Origin: Planctomycetota bacterium
GTDB taxonomy: Bacteria > Planctomycetota > UBA1135 > GCA-002686595
Reading direction: 5' to 3'
Assembly (NCBI GenBank): GCA_004357655.1
Contig: SMVQ01000233.1
Location: 1 to 33,246 of the forward strand
DNA: 33,246 nucleotides
A program made the translations under genes and the position numbers. This document shows, one piece after another, positions 5,260 through 18,455 of the stretch. The notes below the pieces were generated by a model. That model saw only the letters and a program-made list of their open reading frames with translations, made no database searches and was not told the origin of the DNA. Position 1 is the first letter of the stretch. Each line of letters begins with the position of its first letter.

Positions 5260-7395
5260 TCAGAGGGACTCGTACCAGGTCACCTCGTCGAAGGACACCT
5301 GCACCTTCATCGACCCGAGACGGGCCGTGACGAGCCGCCTGGCCTTGTCGACCTTGTGAACGATGCACCGCTGCCGGTAGCGCGGCAGGTACACGAAGGT
5401 GCCCTTCGCGAGCGAGGCCAGGAACCGTTGGCGCCGCTCGGTCAGCGTCGCGCCGGAGAGGTGGCGGTGAAGGGCGTCGAGACGCTCCCGCATGGCGTCG
5501 GCGGGCCCGCGCGGGAGCTGATCGAGGAGCTTCCGGGCCAGTTCGAGCTGGCGCATGGCGTCTCGGACGCGCTCCTCGAGCCCGCGCTGAGCCTCCTGCT
5601 CGAGCAGCTCCGAGCGCCGGTCGAGGTCTTCGTGCTTGTCCGCGAGATCGCGCGTCCGCTGCTCGACGTGCTCGAGCTGGCTCTCGGCCCGGCTACGGAC
5701 GCGCTCGGCTTCCGTGCGGGCCGCGCGGACGTCCTCCATGAGGCGCGCGAGCTCGCCGTCGCGGCGCTCGGTCCGCTCGCTCGCGAGGTCGACGACCTCG
5801 TCGGGCAGCCCGAGGCGCCGCGCGATCGCGAGGGCGCTGGACTCGCCCGGCGTTCCGATGTGCAGCTTGTAGAGCGGCGCGAGCGTGCCGAGGTCGAACT
5901 CGGTGCAGGCGTTCTCGGCGCGCTTGTTGCGGTAGGCGAACTCCTTCAGCTTGCCGAGGTGCGTCGAGACGATCGTCGGGACTGCGCGCGTGCACAGGAA
6001 TTGGAGCACGGCCTCCCCCAGGGCCGCGCCCTCGTCGGGGTCCGTGCCCCCGCCGAGCTCGTCGAGGAGGACGAGCGTGCGCTCCGTCGAGTGGTCGAGC
6101 CCGGCCTTGATGCGCACGAGGTGCGAGGCGAAGGTCGAGAGGTTCTGGCTGATCTCCTGCTCGTCACCGATATCGGCGCAGATCCTGTCGTAGAGGGGCA
6201 CCGTCGTGCCGACCGCGGCGGGGACGGGCAGGCCGCAGCGCGTCAGGAGCGCAAACAGCCCCGCCGTCTTCAGGGCGAGCGTCTTCCCGCCCGTGTTCGG
6301 GCCCGTGATGATCAGCATGTCGAACTCCGCGCCGAGTCGGACGTCGATGGGCACGACGGCCTCGATGCTTCCGGAGCGCGCCTGCTCGATCAGGAGCGGA
6401 TGGCGGGCCGTGCGCAGGAGCAGCCCCTCCGCGGCGCCTTCATCACCCGGCTGGAGCGCGATCCGCGCCTCGTACTCCTCCGAGTACCGCGCGGCGACGA
6501 CCGCGAGCTCGATCTCGGACACGCAGCGCGCGGCACTCTGGATCCTCGGTGCCGCGGAGAGGATCGTGCGGGTGAGCAGGAGGAGCACGCGCTCCACCTC
6601 GCGGCGTTCGTCCGCGCGCGTCTCCGCCAGGCGGTTCCCGAGCTCGATCACCTGGCGCGGCTCGATGAACACGGTCTGCTCGCTCTGGGAACGATCGTGC
6701 ACGATGCCCGGCACGCGCCCCGCGCTCTTCGCCTTGACGGCGAGCACCGGCCGGCCGCCGCGGCGGTGGACGTTGCCGTCCGAGAGCACGTTGCGGACAC
6801 TCCCGGCCTGCATGAGCTCCGAGAGCGACCGGTCGATCGACCGGGAGAGCTGGCCGAGGTCCCGTCGCAGCCGCGCGAGCAGGTCGGAGGCGTCGCTCCG
6901 CACCCGGCCGCGTTCGTCGACGACCGCGCCGATCTCGCTCCGGAGCCCCGCGAGCTCGGGGATCTCCGCGGCGACGGCGCACAGCCGGGGCACCTCCGCC
7001 GTGCGGGACGCGAACCATTCGCGCAGCCGCGCGCAGGCCTCGAGGAACCTGACGAGGGCGACCAGCTCCAGCTCTTCGAGGGCGCGCGTCGGCCGGGCGC
7101 TCGCGGGCAGCGGGTCGGTGACCCCGGCGAGCGAAGGGAGCTCGCCGAGCCTGTGGAGCGCCTGCATCTCGCGCGCGCGCGCGAGCGCGTCCCGCGCCCC
7201 CGCATCCGTGCGCGGCGCGAGCTCCCTGAGGGCCCGCTTGCCGAGCGAGGTCGAGGTGAAGCGCTCGAAGCCCGCGAGCACGAGCTCGAGCTCCAGCACG
7301 CCCGCCGCGAAGTCGTGGCGGTCGAGGAAGGCATCGCGGTCGGGGCGGTCGAGGAAGTCGCCGCCCGCGGCTTCGGGGTCGGGAGCGGGGCTCAC
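5260..7395 (-). CDS. mutS2: MutS2-family ATPase lacking the Smr domain
   Basis: A 711-residue MutS2 homologue. The N-terminal 340 residues match the MutS core/lever region of MutS2 proteins. The ATPase follows, with Walker A GPNTGGKT (365-372), an STFASHL segment (420-426), Walker B LVLLDELGGGT (441-451) and STHLGKLKEFAYR. A coiled coil spans about 545-625 and a KOW-like module 662-711. Most MutS2 proteins (about 740-790 residues) continue into a C-terminal Smr nuclease domain, absent here: the stop comes directly after the KOW-like part and the next 113 bases cannot encode it. MutS2 proteins act in suppressing recombination and rescuing collided ribosomes. The GTG at 7395 is the only usable start. 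Divergent from the next gene. Confidence 0.9.
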   Translation of the reverse strand: MSPAPDPEAAGGDFLDRPDRDAFLDRHDFAAGVLELELVLAGFERFTSTSLGKRALRELAPRTDAGARDALARAREMQALHRLGELPSLAGVTDPLPASARPTRALEELELVALVRFLEACARLREWFASRTAEVPRLCAVAAEIPELAGLRSEIGAVVDERGRVRSDASDLLARLRRDLGQLSRSIDRSLSELMQAGSVRNVLSDGNVHRRGGRPVLAVKAKSAGRVPGIVHDRSQSEQTVFIEPRQVIELGNRLAETRADERREVERVLLLLTRTILSAAPRIQSAARCVSEIELAVVAARYSEEYEARIALQPGDEGAAEGLLLRTARHPLLIEQARSGSIEAVVPIDVRLGAEFDMLIITGPNTGGKTLALKTAGLFALLTRCGLPVPAAVGTTVPLYDRICADIGDEQEISQNLSTFASHLVRIKAGLDHSTERTLVLLDELGGGTDPDEGAALGEAVLQFLCTRAVPTIVSTHLGKLKEFAYRNKRAENACTEFDLGTLAPLYKLHIGTPGESSALAIARRLGLPDEVVDLASERTERRDGELARLMEDVRAARTEAERVRSRAESQLEHVEQRTRDLADKHEDLDRRSELLEQEAQRGLEERVRDAMRQLELARKLLDQLPRGPADAMRERLDALHRHLSGATLTERRQRFLASLAKGTFVYLPRYRQRCIVHKVDKARRLVTARLGSMKVQVSFDEVTWYESL

Positions 7396-10870: not shown

Positions 10871-11347
10871 TCAGGAAAGTGACTTAGGAGCGTTTCCAAC
10901 GGCTCGGACGGGTTCCTCGAGGACGAAGGTCACGGGGCCGTCGCCGACGCTCTCGACGGCCATGAGCGCCCCGAACCGACCGGTGCGCACGGGTACCCCC
11001 AACTCGTCGAGGACGGCGACGAACAGCTCGATGAGGGGCTCGGCGAGCTCCGGCGGCGCGGCCCGCTCGAACGACGGTCGCCGGCCCTTCCGGCCGTCGG
11101 CGACGAGCGTGAACTGGCTGACGACGAGCGCGGAACCGCCGCTCTCGAGGATCGACCGGTCCATGCGTCCAGCCTCGTCCCGAAAGAACCGGAAGCGCGC
11201 GATGCGCTCGGCGAGTCGCCTGGTACGCGCGGCGTCGTCCCCGCGCACAACCCCCAGGAGGATGAGCATGCCCGCCTCGATCGCGCCGACGACCTCGCCC
11301 TCGACGCGCACCTCCGCGCGCGACACACGGCTGACGACCGCGATCAC
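10871..11347 (-). CDS. dtd: D-aminoacyl-tRNA deacylase
   Basis: A 158-residue Dtd, about 10 residues longer than most because of a C-terminal extension ending NAPKSLS. It hydrolyses D-amino acids (and glycine mischarged on tRNA-Ala) from tRNA. The two active-site signatures are present: SQFT (77-80, followed by LVADGRKGRRPSF) and the Gly-cisPro motif in DGPVTF (Gly137-Pro138). The start is the GTG at 11347, giving VIAVVSRVSRAEV, which matches the family's AVVQRVSRASV start. That GTG overlaps the stop of the upstream TPR lipoprotein gene as GTGA, indicating translational coupling. It is the last gene of the trpS-lipoprotein-lipoprotein-dtd group. Confidence 0.94.
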   Translation of the reverse strand: MIAVVSRVSRAEVRVEGEVVGAIEAGMLILLGVVRGDDAARTRRLAERIARFRFFRDEAGRMDRSILESGGSALVVSQFTLVADGRKGRRPSFERAAPPELAEPLIELFVAVLDELGVPVRTGRFGALMAVESVGDGPVTFVLEEPVRAVGNAPKSLS

Positions 11348-12465
11348 GGCGGTCCGTCCCGCGCCTGCTCGTACCGCTCGAGCATCACCTGGGCGCGCAG
11401 CACCTGCAGGAGCCCGGACAGCTCGGTATTCCCCCGCGACAGCTCGGTCACCTTCCGCCACTGCCGCTCGGCGGCCTCGTCGTCCTCGAGCCAATACTCG
11501 TAGAGCACCGCCTGCTGCAAGTGCGGCAGGAGGTCGTCCTTCATCGCTCCCTCCGCCCTCCGCGCTGCATCGAGCGCCGCGAAGAGGTCGCCCAGCGCCT
11601 GCTCCGTCGCCGCGAGCAGCGCGAGCCGGCGACCGCGCGCAACCGTGTTGCCCTCGAGTCCGGCGAGCAGCTCGCGCGCACGAGCGGGACGACCGTCCAG
11701 GAGCAGGAACAGGGCGAGGTCGAGCTCCGCCGTGATGCGCGCTACGGTCGTGACGCGCGGGTCACCGCGCGTCACCTCGAGCCAGGCCGCCAGGTAGTTC
11801 GCGGCCACGGAGACGGCGCCCTCCTGGGCGCGCATCCAGGCCTCGAGCCGGCGGGCGCCCACGTGGCCGGGGTCGAGCTCGAGGGCGCGCGCGAGCGCCT
11901 CGCCGGCCTCGAGCCAGCGATCGTTCTTCCCCCTTTGGCGCAGGAGCGCGTGCGCCTGCCCGTAGTGCGCCCACGCGCAGCCCGGGTCCAGTTCGAGCGC
12001 GCGGTCGAGCAGGTGCTGGCACGCGATGGAGTCGCTCTCGAGCCGCGCCGCGAGGACGAAGTTCACCACGGTGGCGTCCGCCTCCGCCCGCTCCGCGTAC
12101 GCCTTGCGCAGGGCCTCCTCCGGGTCCGGCTCGCGCGCGAGGGCCGCGAGCGCCGGGTCGGCCGGCGAACGCGCGGCGAGCAGCTCCAGCTCGACCTCTT
12201 GCAGATCCACCGCCAATTGCAGGTTATAAGGATGGGCGCGGGTGAGCGGTACGAGCAGGCCCCAGCTCGACTCCCATTCGCCGGCCTCGGCGAAGTCGCG
12301 CGCGGCGCGATACTCCGCGCGCAATTGGGCATCGAAGCGCCCGTACTCCGAGTCCCAGCCCGTCTCCCAGCGGACCCCCGACGAGCCGCACGCGGCGGCC
12401 GCGCAGAGCCCCACCGAGACGGCAGCCCGCACGAGCCGAGGGGAGGTTCGAGAGCGCGCGCTCAC
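11344..12465 (-). CDS. TPR-containing lipoprotein, function unknown
   Basis: A 373-residue protein with a lipoprotein signal peptide (basic start, hydrophobic AAVSVGLCAAAAC, lipidated Cys26). The rest is almost all helical and rich in Ala, Leu and Arg. TPR-like pairs are visible, for example LLDRALELDPGCAWAHYGQA and the next ALARALELDPGHVGARRLEA, with further helical hairpins to the C-terminus. TPR lipoproteins usually act as scaffolds in the periplasm or at the outer membrane. The GTG start at 12465 overlaps the upstream lipoprotein stop as GTGA, and its own stop overlaps the dtd start the same way. I cannot assign a specific partner. Confidence 0.8.
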   Translation of the reverse strand: MSARSRTSPRLVRAAVSVGLCAAAACGSSGVRWETGWDSEYGRFDAQLRAEYRAARDFAEAGEWESSWGLLVPLTRAHPYNLQLAVDLQEVELELLAARSPADPALAALAREPDPEEALRKAYAERAEADATVVNFVLAARLESDSIACQHLLDRALELDPGCAWAHYGQAHALLRQRGKNDRWLEAGEALARALELDPGHVGARRLEAWMRAQEGAVSVAANYLAAWLEVTRGDPRVTTVARITAELDLALFLLLDGRPARARELLAGLEGNTVARGRRLALLAATEQALGDLFAALDAARRAEGAMKDDLLPHLQQAVLYEYWLEDDEAAERQWRKVTELSRGNTELSGLLQVLRAQVMLERYEQARDGPP

Positions 12466-12998
12466 TCCTCGATCGTCGCAGAAAAACGGAGCACGTCCTC
12501 CCGCTCTTCCTTGCCCGTCGCCGGATCCATCCAGTACGCGTCGCCGCGGGCCACGATCGAGACCTCGCAGTCATCGACCCGCTCGAGGATCGTGAGCTCT
12601 TCGAGCGCCATGATCTGCCAGCCGTCGAGCTGCACGCTGATCGGAGGCGATTCGGGGCCGAGGACCTTCGTCACCTGCAAGAACCCCTCCGCGATCACCT
12701 TCACCGTGTAGCTGTAGACGCGCGCGTCCACGCTGGGCACGACGTGCTCGAGCAGGCCGGCCGGTCCCTCGATGTGGATGCGATCCGCGAGGAGCGCCGC
12801 ACGACGGTAAAACTCGTCGGTCCACGGCTTGGGCTGCGGCGGCTCCCACGGCTCCGCCTCGAGCGGCCCCGACGGTGAGACCGGCTGTGCATCCTGCTCG
12901 GGGGACGGTTCCGTCGATGCGCACGCGGTGGCTGCGAGCGCCGCTCCGAACAGGAGCGCGGCCAGCCATCGTGAGTGCCGGGGAGAGCGGTGGTTCAT
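12462..12998 (-). CDS. Hypothetical lipoprotein
   Basis: A 178-residue protein with a clear lipoprotein signal peptide: basic N-terminus, hydrophobic WLAALLFGAALAATAC, lipidated Cys26. A Pro/Glu-rich linker of about 35 residues follows. The globular part contains beta-rich stretches such as VYSYTVKVIAEGFLQVTKV and ISVQLDGWQIMALEELTI, and CEVSIVARGDAYWMDPATG near the end. No known family is recognised. I chose the ATG at 12998 because it puts the signal peptide at the N-terminus. It lies 25 bases downstream of trpS and overlaps the TPR lipoprotein start as GTGA, so the two lipoproteins are probably made together. Confidence 0.75.
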   Translation of the reverse strand: MNHRSPRHSRWLAALLFGAALAATACASTEPSPEQDAQPVSPSGPLEAEPWEPPQPKPWTDEFYRRAALLADRIHIEGPAGLLEHVVPSVDARVYSYTVKVIAEGFLQVTKVLGPESPPISVQLDGWQIMALEELTILERVDDCEVSIVARGDAYWMDPATGKEEREDVLRFSATIEE

Positions 12999-13023
12999 GG
13001 CTGCTTCCGTTTCTCGATCGCCG

Positions 13024-14007
13024 TCACCGTAGCCCACAAGCCGCGAGGGCGCGGTCGCGTGTCGCCCGCGCCCGCACGCGGGCCCGCTCGGCTCCGCGCG
13101 CGAGGATCTCGTCGACCTCGCCCGGGTTCGCGATCAGCGCCTCCCGCCGCTCGCGCGCGGGTCCGAATCGCTCGTCGATGGCCTCGACGAGCCGGGCCTT
13201 GAGATGTCCGTAGCCGGGCGCGCCCTCGCCGCCGGTGCGCACGCGCTCCTGCCACCCGGCGAGCTCCTCCGGGTCGAGGAACAGCTCGAGGAAGTCGAAG
13301 AGGAGGAGCGCGTCGGGGTCCTTCGGCTCCTCGGGCGGCCGACTGTCGGTCGGGATGCGGCCGATGGCCTTTTTCAGCTTCTTTTCCGACTCGAAGATCC
13401 ACAGGTGGTTGCCGTAGGACTTGCTCATCTTCTCGCCGTCGAGTCCCGGAACCCGCGCCAGGGTGTCGGTCGCAGGCAGGCGGCACTCCGGCCGCACGAA
13501 GACATCGCCGTACGCGGCGTTGAAATACCCCGCCATGTCCTGTGCCATCTCGACGTGCTGCTTCTGGTCCTTCCCCACCGGGACGATGTTGGAATCGTAG
13601 GCGAGGATGTCGGCCGCCATGAGGACCGGGTACGTGAAGAGCCCCACCGTCGGTTTGATGCCGCGGGCGAGCTTGTCCTTGTAGGAGTGGGCCCGCTCCA
13701 GGAGCCCCATGCCCGTGACCGTCGAGAGGAGCCAGGTCAGCTCGGTCACCTCGGGTACGTCGCTCTGCCGGAAGAGCACGGCCTGCTCCGGATCGAGCCC
13801 GAGGGCCAGGTACGTGATGGCCGTCTCGCGGACGTTCTCGCGCAAGGCGGCGGGGTCACGACTCGTCGTCAGCGAGTGATAGTCCGCGATGAAGTAGAAG
13901 TGCTCACCGCCTTCCGCGACCGCCTCGATGTGCTGCTTGATCGCGCCGAAGTAGTTTCCGACGTGCGGCAGCCCGCTGGGCTGGATGCCGGAGAGAAAGG
14001 TGGTCAT
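13024..14007 (-). CDS. trpS: Tryptophanyl-tRNA synthetase
   Basis: A 327-residue class I synthetase, normal length for bacterial TrpS. It has the HIGH-type motif HVGN (15-18, in PSGLPHVGNYFGA) and the KMSKS motif (193-197, in GEKMSKSYGN). The tryptophan-pocket segment LMAADILAYDSNIVPVGKDQKQH lies between them (given here as two parts: LMAADILAYD, SNIVPVGKDQKQH). It charges tRNA-Trp in the cytoplasm. The ATG at 14007 gives the standard MTTFLSGIQPSG start; the frame is open far upstream, but only as the antisense of the next gene. It heads a minus-strand group with two lipoproteins and dtd. No T-box or Trp-leader structure is apparent upstream. Confidence 0.96.
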   Translation of the reverse strand: MTTFLSGIQPSGLPHVGNYFGAIKQHIEAVAEGGEHFYFIADYHSLTTSRDPAALRENVRETAITYLALGLDPEQAVLFRQSDVPEVTELTWLLSTVTGMGLLERAHSYKDKLARGIKPTVGLFTYPVLMAADILAYDSNIVPVGKDQKQHVEMAQDMAGYFNAAYGDVFVRPECRLPATDTLARVPGLDGEKMSKSYGNHLWIFESEKKLKKAIGRIPTDSRPPEEPKDPDALLLFDFLELFLDPEELAGWQERVRTGGEGAPGYGHLKARLVEAIDERFGPARERREALIANPGEVDEILARGAERARVRARATRDRALAACGLR

Positions 14008-14163: not shown

Positions 14164-15699
14164 ATGTCGAACGAACGCTCGTACGAGGGAAACCCCGCTG
14201 AGACGGTGCCGATCTGTTCGGCGCGGTGGCACCGGGCGTTCACGTCCCTCCTGCTCGCCCTCTCGGTGAGCTGCGCGTCCGTCTACGACGAGCGCCACGT
14301 CGCCCCGGTCTTCAGCCGGTTCTCCCCCGCCGGCGGCGGCATCGGGACCGAGTCGGTCGGCGGCATGTTCGTCAGTCACAAGCCGGGCTTGGAGGGACCG
14401 CTCGACTACTGGGCGATACGCCCGCTCTACTCGAAGCGCGTCGCGGAGAACGGCAACCGCTTCTACTGGTTCCTCCCGCCCCTGGGCACCTACAAGGTAC
14501 GCGAGCGCGAGCGGGTCTGGCAGCTCCTCCCTATCGCGCGCTACCAGTGGCGGCTGGACGAGGGCGACACCGAACGCTGGTCGTTCCTCAGCCTGCCGGG
14601 GATCTATTGGGCGAAGACGAGCGACGGCCGGATCGTCCGCGCGTGGTTCCCGTTCGGCGGGGTCGCCGACGAGTTCTTCTCGTTCGATCGCCTCGAGTTC
14701 TTCATGTTCCCGCTGTTCGTCAGGACGGAGCGCAACGGTCGCAGGACCACACACTTCCTCTTCCCGATCTTCTCCGTCAGTCGGGGCGCCGGAGGACTGG
14801 CCTGGCGCTTCTGGCCCCTCATCGGACACAACCGCTGGGAAGGACGCTACGAGCGGTTGTTCTTCCTGTGGCCGATCTTCCATTACCAGAGGAACGCTCT
14901 GAACAAGTCCAAGAAGCTGCGGGAGACGGCCTGGACGGTCTTCCCTCTCTTCGGGCAGAGCTCGCGCGGCACGCGGCGCAACTACATGTTCTTGTGGCCG
15001 TTCTTCGGCTATGGCCACGACCCGGTGACGGGCTACTGGTCGCTCGATGCGCCCTGGCCGATCGTACGGTTCCTCGAGCCCGGGACCACGGGCGGCGGAC
15101 GGCGGCACCGGGTCTGGCCCTTCTATTCCTGGTACGAGGGCGACGGGCTCACTTCGCGCTGGATCCTGTGGCCGTTCTTCAACCGGAGGACGGAGGTGTA
15201 CGGGCGAGTCTCGAAGAAAACCACCAACGTCTTCCCGTTCTGGCACAGTTGGACGCGCGACGGCGAGGAGGGCCGGTCGACTTTCCGCCGGTTCTGGCCG
15301 CTCGTGAGGGTGACGCGAGGACCGGATTCGGGCTCCTTCGCGACGCTGGCGCTGAACCCGTTCCCCCCGCTCGAATTCATCGATGAGCACTACGCCTGGC
15401 TCTGGGAGATCTACACCTACGACCACGCGGCCGACGAGGTCCAGGAGCGGAGCTGGCTGGGCCTCTGGCGCCGCGAGAAGGACCGCGACGAGGACCGGCG
15501 CTCCTTCAGCCTGCTCTGGGCCCGGCGCGACTACACGCAGGCGGGGGCGAGAGTCCGAGAAACATCGTGGCTTTTCGGGCTCCTGCGCTTTAGGAAGCGT
15601 GAGGGCGAAGGCACTCGATGGCTCCGCCCAGCGATCCCCGGCCCCGGCTGGCCGCTCGCCCGTGTCCCCCGCTCGATCCCGCCCGCCGACGCCGACTGA
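14164..15699 (+). CDS. WPF-repeat lipoprotein, probable partner of the downstream Mla-type transporter
   Basis: A 511-residue protein I cannot place in a named family. A hydrophobic signal (FTSLLLALSVSC) ends at a probable lipidated Cys37. From about residue 100 to 400 a short motif, two aromatic/aliphatic residues, then W/F-P, then aromatic/aliphatic, recurs about 15 times. Examples are RAWFPFGG (159), FFMFPLF (179), RFWPLIG (215), FFLWPIF (233), MFLWPFFG (275), RVWPFYS (316), WILWPFF (333), VFPFWHS (356) and RFWPLVR (376). The central prolines are spaced 17-24 residues, mostly 18-21. This looks like a regular beta structure (solenoid or barrel). The stop is five bases before the permease ATG, so it is the first gene of an Mla-like operon, and a role in lipid transport at the outer membrane is inferred. 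Confidence 0.8.
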   Translation: MSNERSYEGNPAETVPICSARWHRAFTSLLLALSVSCASVYDERHVAPVFSRFSPAGGGIGTESVGGMFVSHKPGLEGPLDYWAIRPLYSKRVAENGNRFYWFLPPLGTYKVRERERVWQLLPIARYQWRLDEGDTERWSFLSLPGIYWAKTSDGRIVRAWFPFGGVADEFFSFDRLEFFMFPLFVRTERNGRRTTHFLFPIFSVSRGAGGLAWRFWPLIGHNRWEGRYERLFFLWPIFHYQRNALNKSKKLRETAWTVFPLFGQSSRGTRRNYMFLWPFFGYGHDPVTGYWSLDAPWPIVRFLEPGTTGGGRRHRVWPFYSWYEGDGLTSRWILWPFFNRRTEVYGRVSKKTTNVFPFWHSWTRDGEEGRSTFRRFWPLVRVTRGPDSGSFATLALNPFPPLEFIDEHYAWLWEIYTYDHAADEVQERSWLGLWRREKDRDEDRRSFSLLWARRDYTQAGARVRETSWLFGLLRFRKREGEGTRWLRPAIPGPGWPLARVPRSIPPADAD

Positions 15700-15704
15700 C
15701 ACCC

Positions 15705-16502
15705 ATGGCGCTCGTCTCCGCAGCATTCCTGCAGCTCGTCCAGGAGTTCGGCAACAGGCTCGAGCTCCTGGGACAGGTCCTCGCACGCCTCCACCACCTC
15801 CCGCGCCGGAAGCGCTGGATCCTGGACCAGTTCTACGTCGGCGGCGTCCAGACCTTTCATGTCGTCCTCCTCGTGGGGCTGTTCATGGGCATGATCGTCG
15901 CGCTGCAGACGGGCGTCGAGCTCGCCCGGCTCGGCCAGCAGGACCAGATCGGCATGATCGTCGCCTTGAGCATGGCGCGCGAGATGGGGCCGTTCACGAC
16001 GGGCATCGTGCTCTCGGCCACGGTGGGGAGTGCGCTCGCGGCGGAGCTCGGCACGATGTCCGTCTCGGACGAGCTGTCGGCGCTCGAGGTCCTGTCGGTC
16101 GACATCGTCTCGTTCCTCGTGCTGCCGCGCGTGTTCGCGCTCGCCATCATCTGCCCCGCGCTGACCATCATCTGCGACGCCATCGGAATCTGGGGCGGCG
16201 GGTTCGTCGCCGAGTCCCAGTTGCACGTCTCCTGGAGCCTCTACGCGGACGGCGCGCTGGACGCCCTGCGGAAGCCGGGTCAGCTCATCCCGTTGCCGAT
16301 CGAGATCTACTCGGGGCTCATGAAGGCCTTCGTGTTCGGCCTCCTCATCTCCGTGATCTCGTGTGCCAGCGGCCTGAAAGCGCGCGGCGGGGCGCTCGGC
16401 GTGGGCCAGGCGACACGGCAGGCCGTGCGCGACTCGATCATCGCGATCATCGTCTCCAACTACTTCATGACCTGGTTCATCCAGCAGATGGAGATGCGGT
16501 GA
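15705..16502 (+). CDS. mlaE: MlaE-type ABC transporter permease (phospholipid transport)
   Basis: A 265-residue MlaE-family permease, full length. It starts with an amphipathic helix, then membrane segments around QTFHVVLLVGLFMGMIVALQ, the conserved MAREMGPFTTGIVLSATVGSALAAELGTM core, LPRVFALAIICPALTIICD, the segment KAFVFGLLISVISCASG, and a last helix. MlaE dimers form the inner-membrane channel between the MlaF ATPases and the MlaD hexamer and move phospholipids between the membranes. The ATG at 15705 follows the upstream stop by five bases; the frame is open further back, but without family similarity. The stop overlaps the ATPase GTG start as GTGA. The symbol follows the E. coli orthologue group. 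Confidence 0.93.
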   Translation: MALVSAAFLQLVQEFGNRLELLGQVLARLHHLPRRKRWILDQFYVGGVQTFHVVLLVGLFMGMIVALQTGVELARLGQQDQIGMIVALSMAREMGPFTTGIVLSATVGSALAAELGTMSVSDELSALEVLSVDIVSFLVLPRVFALAIICPALTIICDAIGIWGGGFVAESQLHVSWSLYADGALDALRKPGQLIPLPIEIYSGLMKAFVFGLLISVISCASGLKARGGALGVGQATRQAVRDSIIAIIVSNYFMTWFIQQMEMR

Positions 16503-17254
16503 GCGAGGCCGCCTCGAACGACGTGCTGATCCGGTTCAGGGACGTCCACAAGTCCTTCGGGGACCAGGAGATCCTGTGCGGACTCGACCTCGAAGTACGG
16601 CGCGGCAAGACGCTCGGGATCATGGGCGGCTCGGGGACGGGCAAGTCGGTCACACTGCGGCACGTCATCGGTCTGTTGCAGCCCGACTCGGGGCTCGTCG
16701 AGGTCGACGGGCACGACATGTCGACGATCACCGCCAAGGACCTCGCGGCCCTGCGCAGACGCATGGGCTACGTCTTCCAGGAAGGCGCCCTCATCAACTG
16801 GCTCACGGTCGCGGAGAACCTTGCGCTACCCCTGCGCGAGAACACAAAGTTCTCCGAGGAACGGATCAAGGAGCTCGTCCAGGAAAAGCTCGAGCTGGTG
16901 TACATCCCGGACGCGGGCGAGAAGCTGCCTTCGGAGATATCCGGCGGGATGAAGAAGCGCGTGGGCCTCGCCCGGGCGCTCATCACGGATCCCGAGATCA
17001 TCCTCTACGACGAGCCGAACGCGGGACTCGATCCCGAGATCTCGGCCTCCGTCAACCACCTGATCCGCGAGCTGTCCGACAAGCTCGAGGTGACGGCGAT
17101 CGTCGTCGAACACAGAATCGGCTGCCTCAAGATCGTCGCCGATGAAGTCGCCTTCCTGCACGAGGGACAGGTCCTCGTGCTCGAACCCACAGAGTCCTTT
17201 TTCAAACCCACTCATCCGCGCCTCGCACGGTTCCTCGGCGACGGACAGGACTGA
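16499..17254 (+). CDS. mlaF: MlaF-type ABC transporter ATPase
   Basis: A 251-residue ABC ATPase with Walker A GGSGTGKS (43-50), Q-loop Gln94 in YVFQEGALIN, signature ISGGMKKR (147-154), Walker B IILYDEP (167-173), D-loop AGLDP and a switch histidine in VVEH (205). The SGGM variant of the signature, and the FQEGALINWLTVAEN segment, are typical of the MlaF/Mkl subgroup. It energises lipid movement by the MlaE permease. The GTG start overlaps the permease stop by four bases, so production is coupled. The MCE gene starts 13 bases after its stop. The regulatory subunit MlaB (STAS domain) is not encoded in the neighbourhood. Confidence 0.94.
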   Translation: MSEAASNDVLIRFRDVHKSFGDQEILCGLDLEVRRGKTLGIMGGSGTGKSVTLRHVIGLLQPDSGLVEVDGHDMSTITAKDLAALRRRMGYVFQEGALINWLTVAENLALPLRENTKFSEERIKELVQEKLELVYIPDAGEKLPSEISGGMKKRVGLARALITDPEIILYDEPNAGLDPEISASVNHLIRELSDKLEVTAIVVEHRIGCLKIVADEVAFLHEGQVLVLEPTESFFKPTHPRLARFLGDGQD

Positions 17255-17267
17255 CGGAGAACGAGAC

Positions 17268-18455
17268 ATGTCCAGTGAACGCCAACTGATCCTCGGCTTC
17301 TTCTTCATGGTCGTCTTCTCGATCCTGATCTACTTCACGCTCTTCCTGACGGACTTTCAGCTGTTCGGCGAGCGATTCGAGCGGACGGTGTACTTCTCGG
17401 AGACGAACGGGCTGCGCGTCGGGGATCCCGTCCTCGTGGCAGGGATGCGCTGGGGCAAGGTCGAGGATCTCGAGTTCGATCCGCAGGCGGAGGTCTCGAA
17501 GCGGATCCTCGTGACGTTCACGCTGAACGACCGGGTCGACCTGCACGAAGACCACGAGGTCAAGATCGAGGACGCGACGATCCTGGGCGGCAAGCACCTG
17601 TCGGTCGACCCGGGCACGGCGTCGAGTCCGCTGCTCGCTCCGGGCACGGAACTGCACGGCAAAGTGTCGCCGAACGTGATGAAGGCGGTCGAGCAGCTCG
17701 TTGAAGAGAACCGCGAGACGCTCCGGGGCGCACTGGCGGGGCTCGACATCATCATCCAGGACATCCAGTCGAGCCGCAGCATGCTCAGCAAGATCATGTA
17801 CGACGACGAGGTGTCCGCGAACTTCTCCAGCGCCGTGGCCCGCATTGCGAGCTCTTTCGAGAACATCGATATCCTGTCGCGCGACCTGCGGCGCGGCACG
17901 GGGACCTTCGGCATGCTCCTGACCGATGACGGCGCCGCCTACGAGGACCTGTCGAGTCTCCTCCGGACCGGACGCGAGATCGTGGAGAGAGCGCAGGCGG
18001 GCCTAGGGGCCATCGGGATGCTGCTCGCGGACGAGGACGTGGCGGAGGATGTCGGAGTCTTCTTCGGGAACCTCGCCCGGATCTCGACGAGCATCGATGG
18101 AACCGCGCGAGCCATCGACGAGGGCGAGGGCGTGCTCGGCATGTTCGTCCGGGACTCGGAGTTTCGCGATGACGTGAAGGGCGTGTTCAGCATGCTGGCG
18201 AACGGCGAGGGCACGCTCGGCAAGTTGATCACCGACCGCAGGGTCTACGACGACCTCGTCGTCGTGGCGAAGAACCTGCGCGAGCTCTCGGACGCGGCCA
18301 ACAACGGCGACGGGACGGTCGCGCTGCTCATCCACGACGACGCCCTCTACCAGGACCTGCGGACAATGCTCGCCAAGCTGACGGGGAGCCTCGAGGAGGC
18401 GCGCGAGGCGGCGCCCATCTCGACGTTCCTCAATACGGTGTTCCTGGGCTTCTGA
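17268..18455 (+). CDS. mlaD: MlaD-type MCE protein with repeated C-terminal half
   Basis: A 395-residue protein with one N-terminal membrane anchor (8-30) and an MCE domain (about 36-130: VYFSETNGLRVGDPVLVAGMR... up to ILGGKHLSVDPG). MCE rings bind lipid and form a tunnel across the periplasm. E. coli MlaD is about 180 residues; the additional 200 residues here hold at least five copies of a motif G-x-G-x-hydrophobic-G-x-x-hydrophobic-x-D followed by a second acidic residue. They start near residues 210 (RGTGTFGMLLTDD), 245 (GLGAIGMLLADED), 286 (GEGVLGMFVRDSE), 313 (GEGTLGKLITDRR) and 347 (GDGTVALLIHDDA). The repeats alternate with helical segments. Start ATG 17268 follows GGAGAACGAGAC. Last gene of the operon. 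Confidence 0.93.
   Translation: MSSERQLILGFFFMVVFSILIYFTLFLTDFQLFGERFERTVYFSETNGLRVGDPVLVAGMRWGKVEDLEFDPQAEVSKRILVTFTLNDRVDLHEDHEVKIEDATILGGKHLSVDPGTASSPLLAPGTELHGKVSPNVMKAVEQLVEENRETLRGALAGLDIIIQDIQSSRSMLSKIMYDDEVSANFSSAVARIASSFENIDILSRDLRRGTGTFGMLLTDDGAAYEDLSSLLRTGREIVERAQAGLGAIGMLLADEDVAEDVGVFFGNLARISTSIDGTARAIDEGEGVLGMFVRDSEFRDDVKGVFSMLANGEGTLGKLITDRRVYDDLVVVAKNLRELSDAANNGDGTVALLIHDDALYQDLRTMLAKLTGSLEEAREAAPISTFLNTVFLGF

Follow-up and report, generated by a model that had tools for sequence, protein, structure and literature searches.

A repeat-containing lipoprotein as the probable outer-membrane partner of an MlaEF-MCE transporter in Planctomycetota

The operon and its first gene

The window, the whole 33,246-nt stretch analysed here (contig SMVQ01000233.1), belongs to a draft genome of a Planctomycetota bacterium that is 78% complete. 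On its forward strand lies an operon that opens with the gene of a lipoprotein built from repeated tryptophan/phenylalanine-proline motifs (hereafter the WPF lipoprotein), followed by the genes of an Mla-type lipid transporter: a permease (MlaE), an ATPase (MlaF) and a protein with an MCE domain. The features are as follows.

14164..15699, + strand: WPF-repeat lipoprotein gene, first gene of the operon, 511 amino acids (open reading frame; no Pfam, NCBIfam or PDB sequence match)
14164..14274, + strand: signal peptide with lipobox LSVSC and lipid-attachment Cys37, codon 14272-14274 (lipobox, alignment of homologues)
14629..15351, + strand: regular WPF β-hairpin repeat core, residues 156-396 (folded separately, pLDDT 97.4)
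15705..16502, + strand: MlaE permease (Pfam PF02405, 9.7e-63)
16499..17254, + strand: MlaF-type ATPase, GTG start (Pfam PF00005, 4.8e-31)
17268..18455, + strand: MCE (MlaD-like) protein, 395 amino acids, one MlaD/MCE domain (PF02470, 3.6e-13)
18393..18452, + strand: conserved C-terminal tail of the MCE protein, EEAREAAPISTFLNTVFLGF, exclusive to WPF-linked MCE proteins (locus comparison)

The layout agrees with a first-pass annotation made from the sequence. The 511-residue lipoprotein frame runs from an ATG at 14164 to a stop at 15699, five bases ahead of the mlaE ATG (15705); the mlaF GTG at 16499 overlaps the mlaE stop as GTGA, and 13 bases separate the mlaF stop from the MCE ATG (17268). 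Since PF02405, PF00005 and PF02470 all scored above their cut-offs in adjacent genes, the window by its domain content encodes a core Mla/MCE lipid ABC transporter, with permease, ABC ATPase and MCE protein in one operon. The closest NCBIfam relative of the ATPase is MlaF, with a score under the cut-off. The MCE protein comprises an N-terminal transmembrane segment, a single MCE domain and a long helical repeat region, and lacks a barrel domain. A pattern search found neither a sigma-70 promoter nor a terminator, a result that is uninformative.

By its signal peptide and invariant lipobox cysteine, the product of the first gene qualifies as a bacterial lipoprotein. Cys37 is kept in 58/58 homologues of the order, and about 12 prolines are likewise invariant in this alignment. 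The residue that follows the cysteine is mostly Ala and in 0/58 cases Asp; the +2 sorting rule is not established for Planctomycetota. Searches of Pfam, NCBIfam and PDB sequences with the lipoprotein returned no useful match, and PF03886 (PqiC / ABC_trans_aux) gave none. Weak matches to designed armadillo proteins in a PDB profile search (E 0.0014) were judged to be chance because the protein is predicted to be all-β. The repeats themselves stand out clearly: the chain holds 13 W/F-P-hydrophobic motifs, or 16 when L or I before the proline is counted, against a mean of 1.9 and a maximum of 7 in shuffles of the same composition, which bears out the count of about 15 given earlier. The 18 conserved prolines recur at intervals of 17-24 residues, save for one gap of 39.

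An AlphaFold2 model, built with a 58-sequence alignment, predicts with high confidence that the lipoprotein forms a continuous antiparallel β-hairpin ribbon, in keeping with the β-rich structure that had been anticipated. The whole model (predicted local distance difference test, pLDDT, 94.2; pTM 0.82) comprises ~45 short strands and nearly no helix apart from the signal peptide, and the repeat core modelled alone reached a pLDDT of 97.4. Every proline sits in a short turn of the predicted strand list, and prolines recur at each second turn, which would place them along one edge of the meander. The proportion of hydrophobic residues at positions -2 to +2 about each proline is 92-98%; charged residues or Gly occupy the hairpin tips on the other side. 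In the predicted ribbon, the LWPFF segments form a single hydrophobic edge, which may take part in lipid handling, as the annotation suggested for an aromatic lining, or have a purely structural role.

Foldseek searches of the PDB and of viral models gave no global match to the lipoprotein, with query-normalised TM-scores of <=0.21 among the best 50. The whole-model matches to WD propellers, LRP6, teneurin/Rhs shells, OspA and VDAC, all within this limit, were rejected as local likeness of meanders and not homology. Locally, the repeat core comes closest to the single-layer sheet of OspA (Foldseek probability up to 1.00, TM <=0.34). Neither the whole model (<=0.21) nor the core (<=0.34) therefore matches a known repeat fold (YD shell, β-propeller or OspA) globally. 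A predicted fold shared with a known unrelated family had been named as an outcome that would count against the lipoprotein working with the transporter; no such fold was found.

Distribution of the family and linkage to mla genes

Homologues of the WPF lipoprotein were found in 60/61 genomes searched among relatives and in 146/151 genomes of the class. In the phylum, 113/246 genomes have a match, about half of the sampled Planctomycetota, 105 of them with strong matches (E<1e-40). A collection scan with a 21-row WPF alignment gave named relatives that carry the gene; these are Planctomycetota, among them strains Poly30, Pla163 and Pla86. Among the plasmids of PLSDB, no homologue was found. 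In four of the five class genomes without WPF, mlaE is absent too. We did not use this joint absence as evidence, because neighbouring genes go missing jointly when a draft genome has gaps.

The surroundings of the homologues were read by tblastn and profile searches of the neighbourhoods. In the family of the host, mlaE adjoins WPF in 28/29 further loci, the remaining one being cut by a contig end, and the order as a whole shows the same arrangement at essentially every locus. Further afield, mlaE (with mlaF and the MCE gene where the contig reaches) stands beside WPF in 55/60 distant loci from 35 further families. Homologues thus lie mainly at mla genes, the reverse of what the annotation had said would speak against its proposal. 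The gene order is mostly WPF-mlaE-mlaF-MCE, with mlaE-mlaF-WPF-MCE in two distant loci.

The divergent neighbour of the operon in its own family is the TrpRS gene. Downstream of TrpRS, two adjoining genes on the minus strand of the window (11344-13037) are syntenic across the family; their products are a lipoprotein-like protein of 191 amino acids and a protein of 373 amino acids with TPR repeats. In family f34, loci L102, L104 and L105 encode WPF-repeat lipoproteins unlinked to mla; L104 adjoins a gene for a calcineurin-like phosphoesterase, and the open reading frames that neighbour L102 and L105 are similar to those of L104.

Fused barrel-like domain and MCE tail

In WPF-negative Planctomycetota, the orthologous MCE protein is longer and carries a C-terminal domain of ~190 amino acids with strong β alternation (z 2.7-4.2). 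In position and character this domain resembles the barrel of Veillonella MlaD, and we refer to it as barrel-like. Its profile matches 39/246 Planctomycetota genomes, and there is no overlap between these 39 and the 105 genomes with strong WPF matches (Fisher 2.9e-11, with genome counts that are not independent), nor between the 43 families with WPF and the 18 with the fused domain (1.1e-6). Six barrel genomes give weak WPF matches, which trace to different open frames, some of them >1000 amino acids long. At all 21 barrel loci read, the domain is on the MCE open reading frame and WPF is absent. A search of the host draft genome with the A4 profile gave no fused MCE barrel, and thus no transenvelope MlaD of the Veillonella type.

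The MCE proteins linked to WPF end ~20 residues past the helical region, at the point where the barrel would begin. These last residues form a tail with the consensus EDxREAAPISTFxxxLFGxF. One pattern for the tail matched 77/91 WPF loci, several of the others being without a complete MCE gene, and a slightly looser one matched 79/81 WPF loci with an MCE score >90 bits. Among other, non-WPF Mla loci, the pattern was found in 0/56; it had first been noticed on WPF-linked loci, and these control loci were collected later.

On the MlaE tree, a single clade of 110 sequences unites 87 from WPF loci, 20 from barrel loci and three from loci with neither, and implies five switches between WPF and barrel. 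One of the three, L263, comes from a genome with a barrel MCE protein elsewhere. By this comparison of sequences, the lipoprotein and the fused barrel-like domain replace each other within one clade of MlaE orthologs. Their exclusion, together with the MCE tail linked to WPF, is what is new here. For WPF and the tail, three well-supported independent pairs (seven on the best tree) could be drawn; almost every draw was concordant (p = 0.25).

Several loci show other combinations. Fused C-terminal β-barrel-like domains on MCE proteins were recorded at L245, L246, L265, L266 and L283-L300, from 18 planctomycete families; at L246 the domain is placed at 6446-7024. At L269 (2403-3293), the tail of the MCE protein is degenerate, HGAFSSILYSSF, and there is neither WPF nor barrel; in the MlaE tree this locus is the sister of two f49 loci whose WPF proteins lack a lipobox, and it could be an intermediate. 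At L110 and L129, WPF and the MCE tail accompany an MlaE that is highly divergent (65 and 63 bits) and falls outside the main clade. Finally, open frames of 1000-1470 amino acids with several weak WPF-profile matches (G151:C318, G161:C76, G170:C168, G212:C107), mostly from genomes with the fused-domain MCE protein, possibly belong to a larger WPF-repeat superfamily.

Other outer-membrane partners also occur in the phylum. The absence of MlaA and MlaC from the locus, remarked on in the first-pass annotation, extends to the whole of the host draft genome (78% complete), where PqiC-type proteins (PF03886) gave no match either. PF04333 and PF05494 had no match in this genome or in four other sampled members of the class, so the E. 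coli type of Mla pathway was not found there. Five Planctomycetota genomes carry both MlaA and MlaC, and all are WPF-negative (L242/G235, G198, G218, G154 and G185; beside mlaE in the first three). Genes for PF03886 lipoproteins adjoin a second, WPF-less mlaE in WPF-positive genomes such as G153, G173 and G175 (at G153:C289:83960, G173:C69:11177 and G175:C1:445831). The simplest reading is that each type of Mla locus has its own outer-membrane end, be it MlaA with MlaC, a PqiC-type lipoprotein, a fused barrel, or WPF with the MCE tail. The host genome also holds a second, Pqi-like system on contig C268 (L002, 731-2769), in which a PqiA-like gene is followed by one for a protein with two MCE domains.

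Proposed role and comparison with known systems

MlaD proteins are for the most part long and have no barrel; the envelope of Planctomycetota is still debated. The WPF lipoprotein occurs exactly where the MCE protein lacks a fused barrel, and is thus probably the outer-membrane end of the transporter: a dedicated partner of the planctomycete MlaEF-MCE system and a separate replacement for the fused barrel. This proposal draws on the shared operon, the invariant lipobox, the linkage across the phylum, the exclusion between barrel and WPF and the co-occurrence of WPF with the tail. The annotation's central suggestion, that the lipoprotein acts together with the MCE complex in place of an outer-membrane partner, is well supported by the linkage, the exclusion and the tail; the annotation's interpretation as a whole is borne out in part.

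In the arrangement we envisage, MlaE2F2 and a putative MCE hexamer would sit in the inner membrane, and the helical region of the MCE protein would form a needle that spans the periplasm. In this lineage, the needle would end without a barrel-like domain, in the conserved hydrophobic tail. The lipoprotein, probably held in the outer membrane by its N-terminal lipid, would receive this tail and close the bridge, with EAREAAPISTFLNTVFLGF as the candidate interface between the two proteins. Lipids could then pass between needle and outer membrane, a passage that is putative, as is its direction.

Several observations weigh against this proposal. Five of the 60 distant homologues (three from f34, one from f82 and one from f84) lie away from mla genes, which suggests that the WPF fold has uses beyond this transporter. 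A lipobox is apparently missing from two f49 homologues and from L130, and a check of three class members gave no LolA. The fused domain is taken for a barrel on the strength of its sequence alternation. Finally, the exclusion is strong in counts, but it reflects few independent swaps (3-7), and support corrected for the tree is thin.

A stronger form of the proposal, possible but doubtful, is that the lipoprotein itself conducts lipid, exchanging it with the needle through a groove of the ribbon or through an LWPFF edge inserted into the outer membrane. The strongly hydrophobic edge and the charged hairpin tips would suit such a role, but the edge may just be the core of a coiled ribbon, and no lipid-binding fold was matched. 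We can put forward only tentatively that the protein is a lipid portal of a new class in the outer membrane: a β-hairpin ribbon with aromatic residues along one edge, which would capture the MCE tail, itself pass phospholipids and act as a non-homologous, repeatedly exchanged replacement for the barrel.

It is unlikely that the lipoprotein is instead a periplasmic or inner-membrane accessory or scaffold of the complex, such as one that sheathes the needle lengthwise. The length of the predicted ribbon would fit this, as would homologues with a signal peptide and no lipobox cysteine (L112, L123, L130). However, the tip of the needle is indicated both by the mutual exclusion of the lipoprotein and a C-terminal barrel-like domain and by the link to the membrane-distal tail at the C-terminus of the MCE protein, and the lipobox has no Asp at +2. 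A transmembrane outer-membrane β-barrel resembling that of MlaD is very improbable: the protein takes the barrel's slot and is predicted to be all-β and many-stranded, but the in/out alternation of membrane barrels is missing from its chain (z -1.6 vs 2.7-4.2 for the fused domain), the test by which we ruled out this identity; in addition, it has a lipobox, and its local fold matches are OspA single-layer sheets and propellers, with VDAC marginal. Finally, that the gene just sits in a conserved neighbourhood is hardly credible, for although the wider surroundings in its own family (TrpRS and two lipoprotein-like genes) are also syntenic, the mla linkage holds across the 35 further families, whose loci for the most part do not have TrpRS as a neighbour, so that general synteny does not explain it, and synteny explains neither the barrel exclusion nor the MCE tail.

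The preferred reading, a dedicated outer-membrane partner, names a specific and widely conserved planctomycete candidate for the outer-membrane end of MCE systems without MlaA, MlaC or an MlaD barrel. It indicates the 20-residue MCE tail as the likely contact of the lipoprotein, and defines an undescribed protein family whose predicted fold is unmatched.

Compared with E. coli Mla (MlaFEDB-MlaC-MlaA), the window has a homologous permease, ATPase and MCE protein, whereas MlaA and MlaC were not found in the host draft genome. The annotation went too far in taking a separate partner to be necessary for Mla systems, since MlaEFD of Veillonella parvula has none and its MlaD carries its own barrel (PMC10665443). 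Like the window, the Veillonella system combines MlaE, MlaF and an MlaD with one MCE domain and a long helical region, in the absence of MlaA and MlaC. Other Planctomycetota are Veillonella-like, their version of the same MCE protein bearing the fused C-terminal barrel-like domain; the window, in contrast, has a separate lipoprotein gene and the conserved MCE tail instead. A survey reported the MlaD barrel to be completely absent from the Planctomycetes-Verrucomicrobia-Chlamydiae (PVC) group (PMC10665443), whereas we found barrel-like domains in the 39 planctomycete genomes described above.

Borrelia OspA (PDB 5z1o/3cka) shares with the WPF protein an extended antiparallel β-hairpin sheet within a lipoprotein, but there is no detectable sequence relation, and the low TM-score (<=0.34) and a root-mean-square deviation of ~14 Å indicate a different curvature. 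Closer in organization are PqiABC, with the outer-membrane lipoprotein PqiC (PMC10897342), and Brucella MpcEFDA, with the PqiC-like MpcA (PMC12436622), which are likewise MCE needle systems whose operon includes one lipoprotein. PqiC and MpcA offer precedents for a lipoprotein that is proposed to anchor or cap the MCE needle at the outer membrane (PMC10897342, PMC12436622). Both are of the PF03886 type, whereas the WPF protein falls in no Pfam family, has ~2.5 times their length and a predicted all-β ribbon fold. The simplest reading is that the WPF lipoprotein would work like PqiC and MpcA, yet belongs to no known family.

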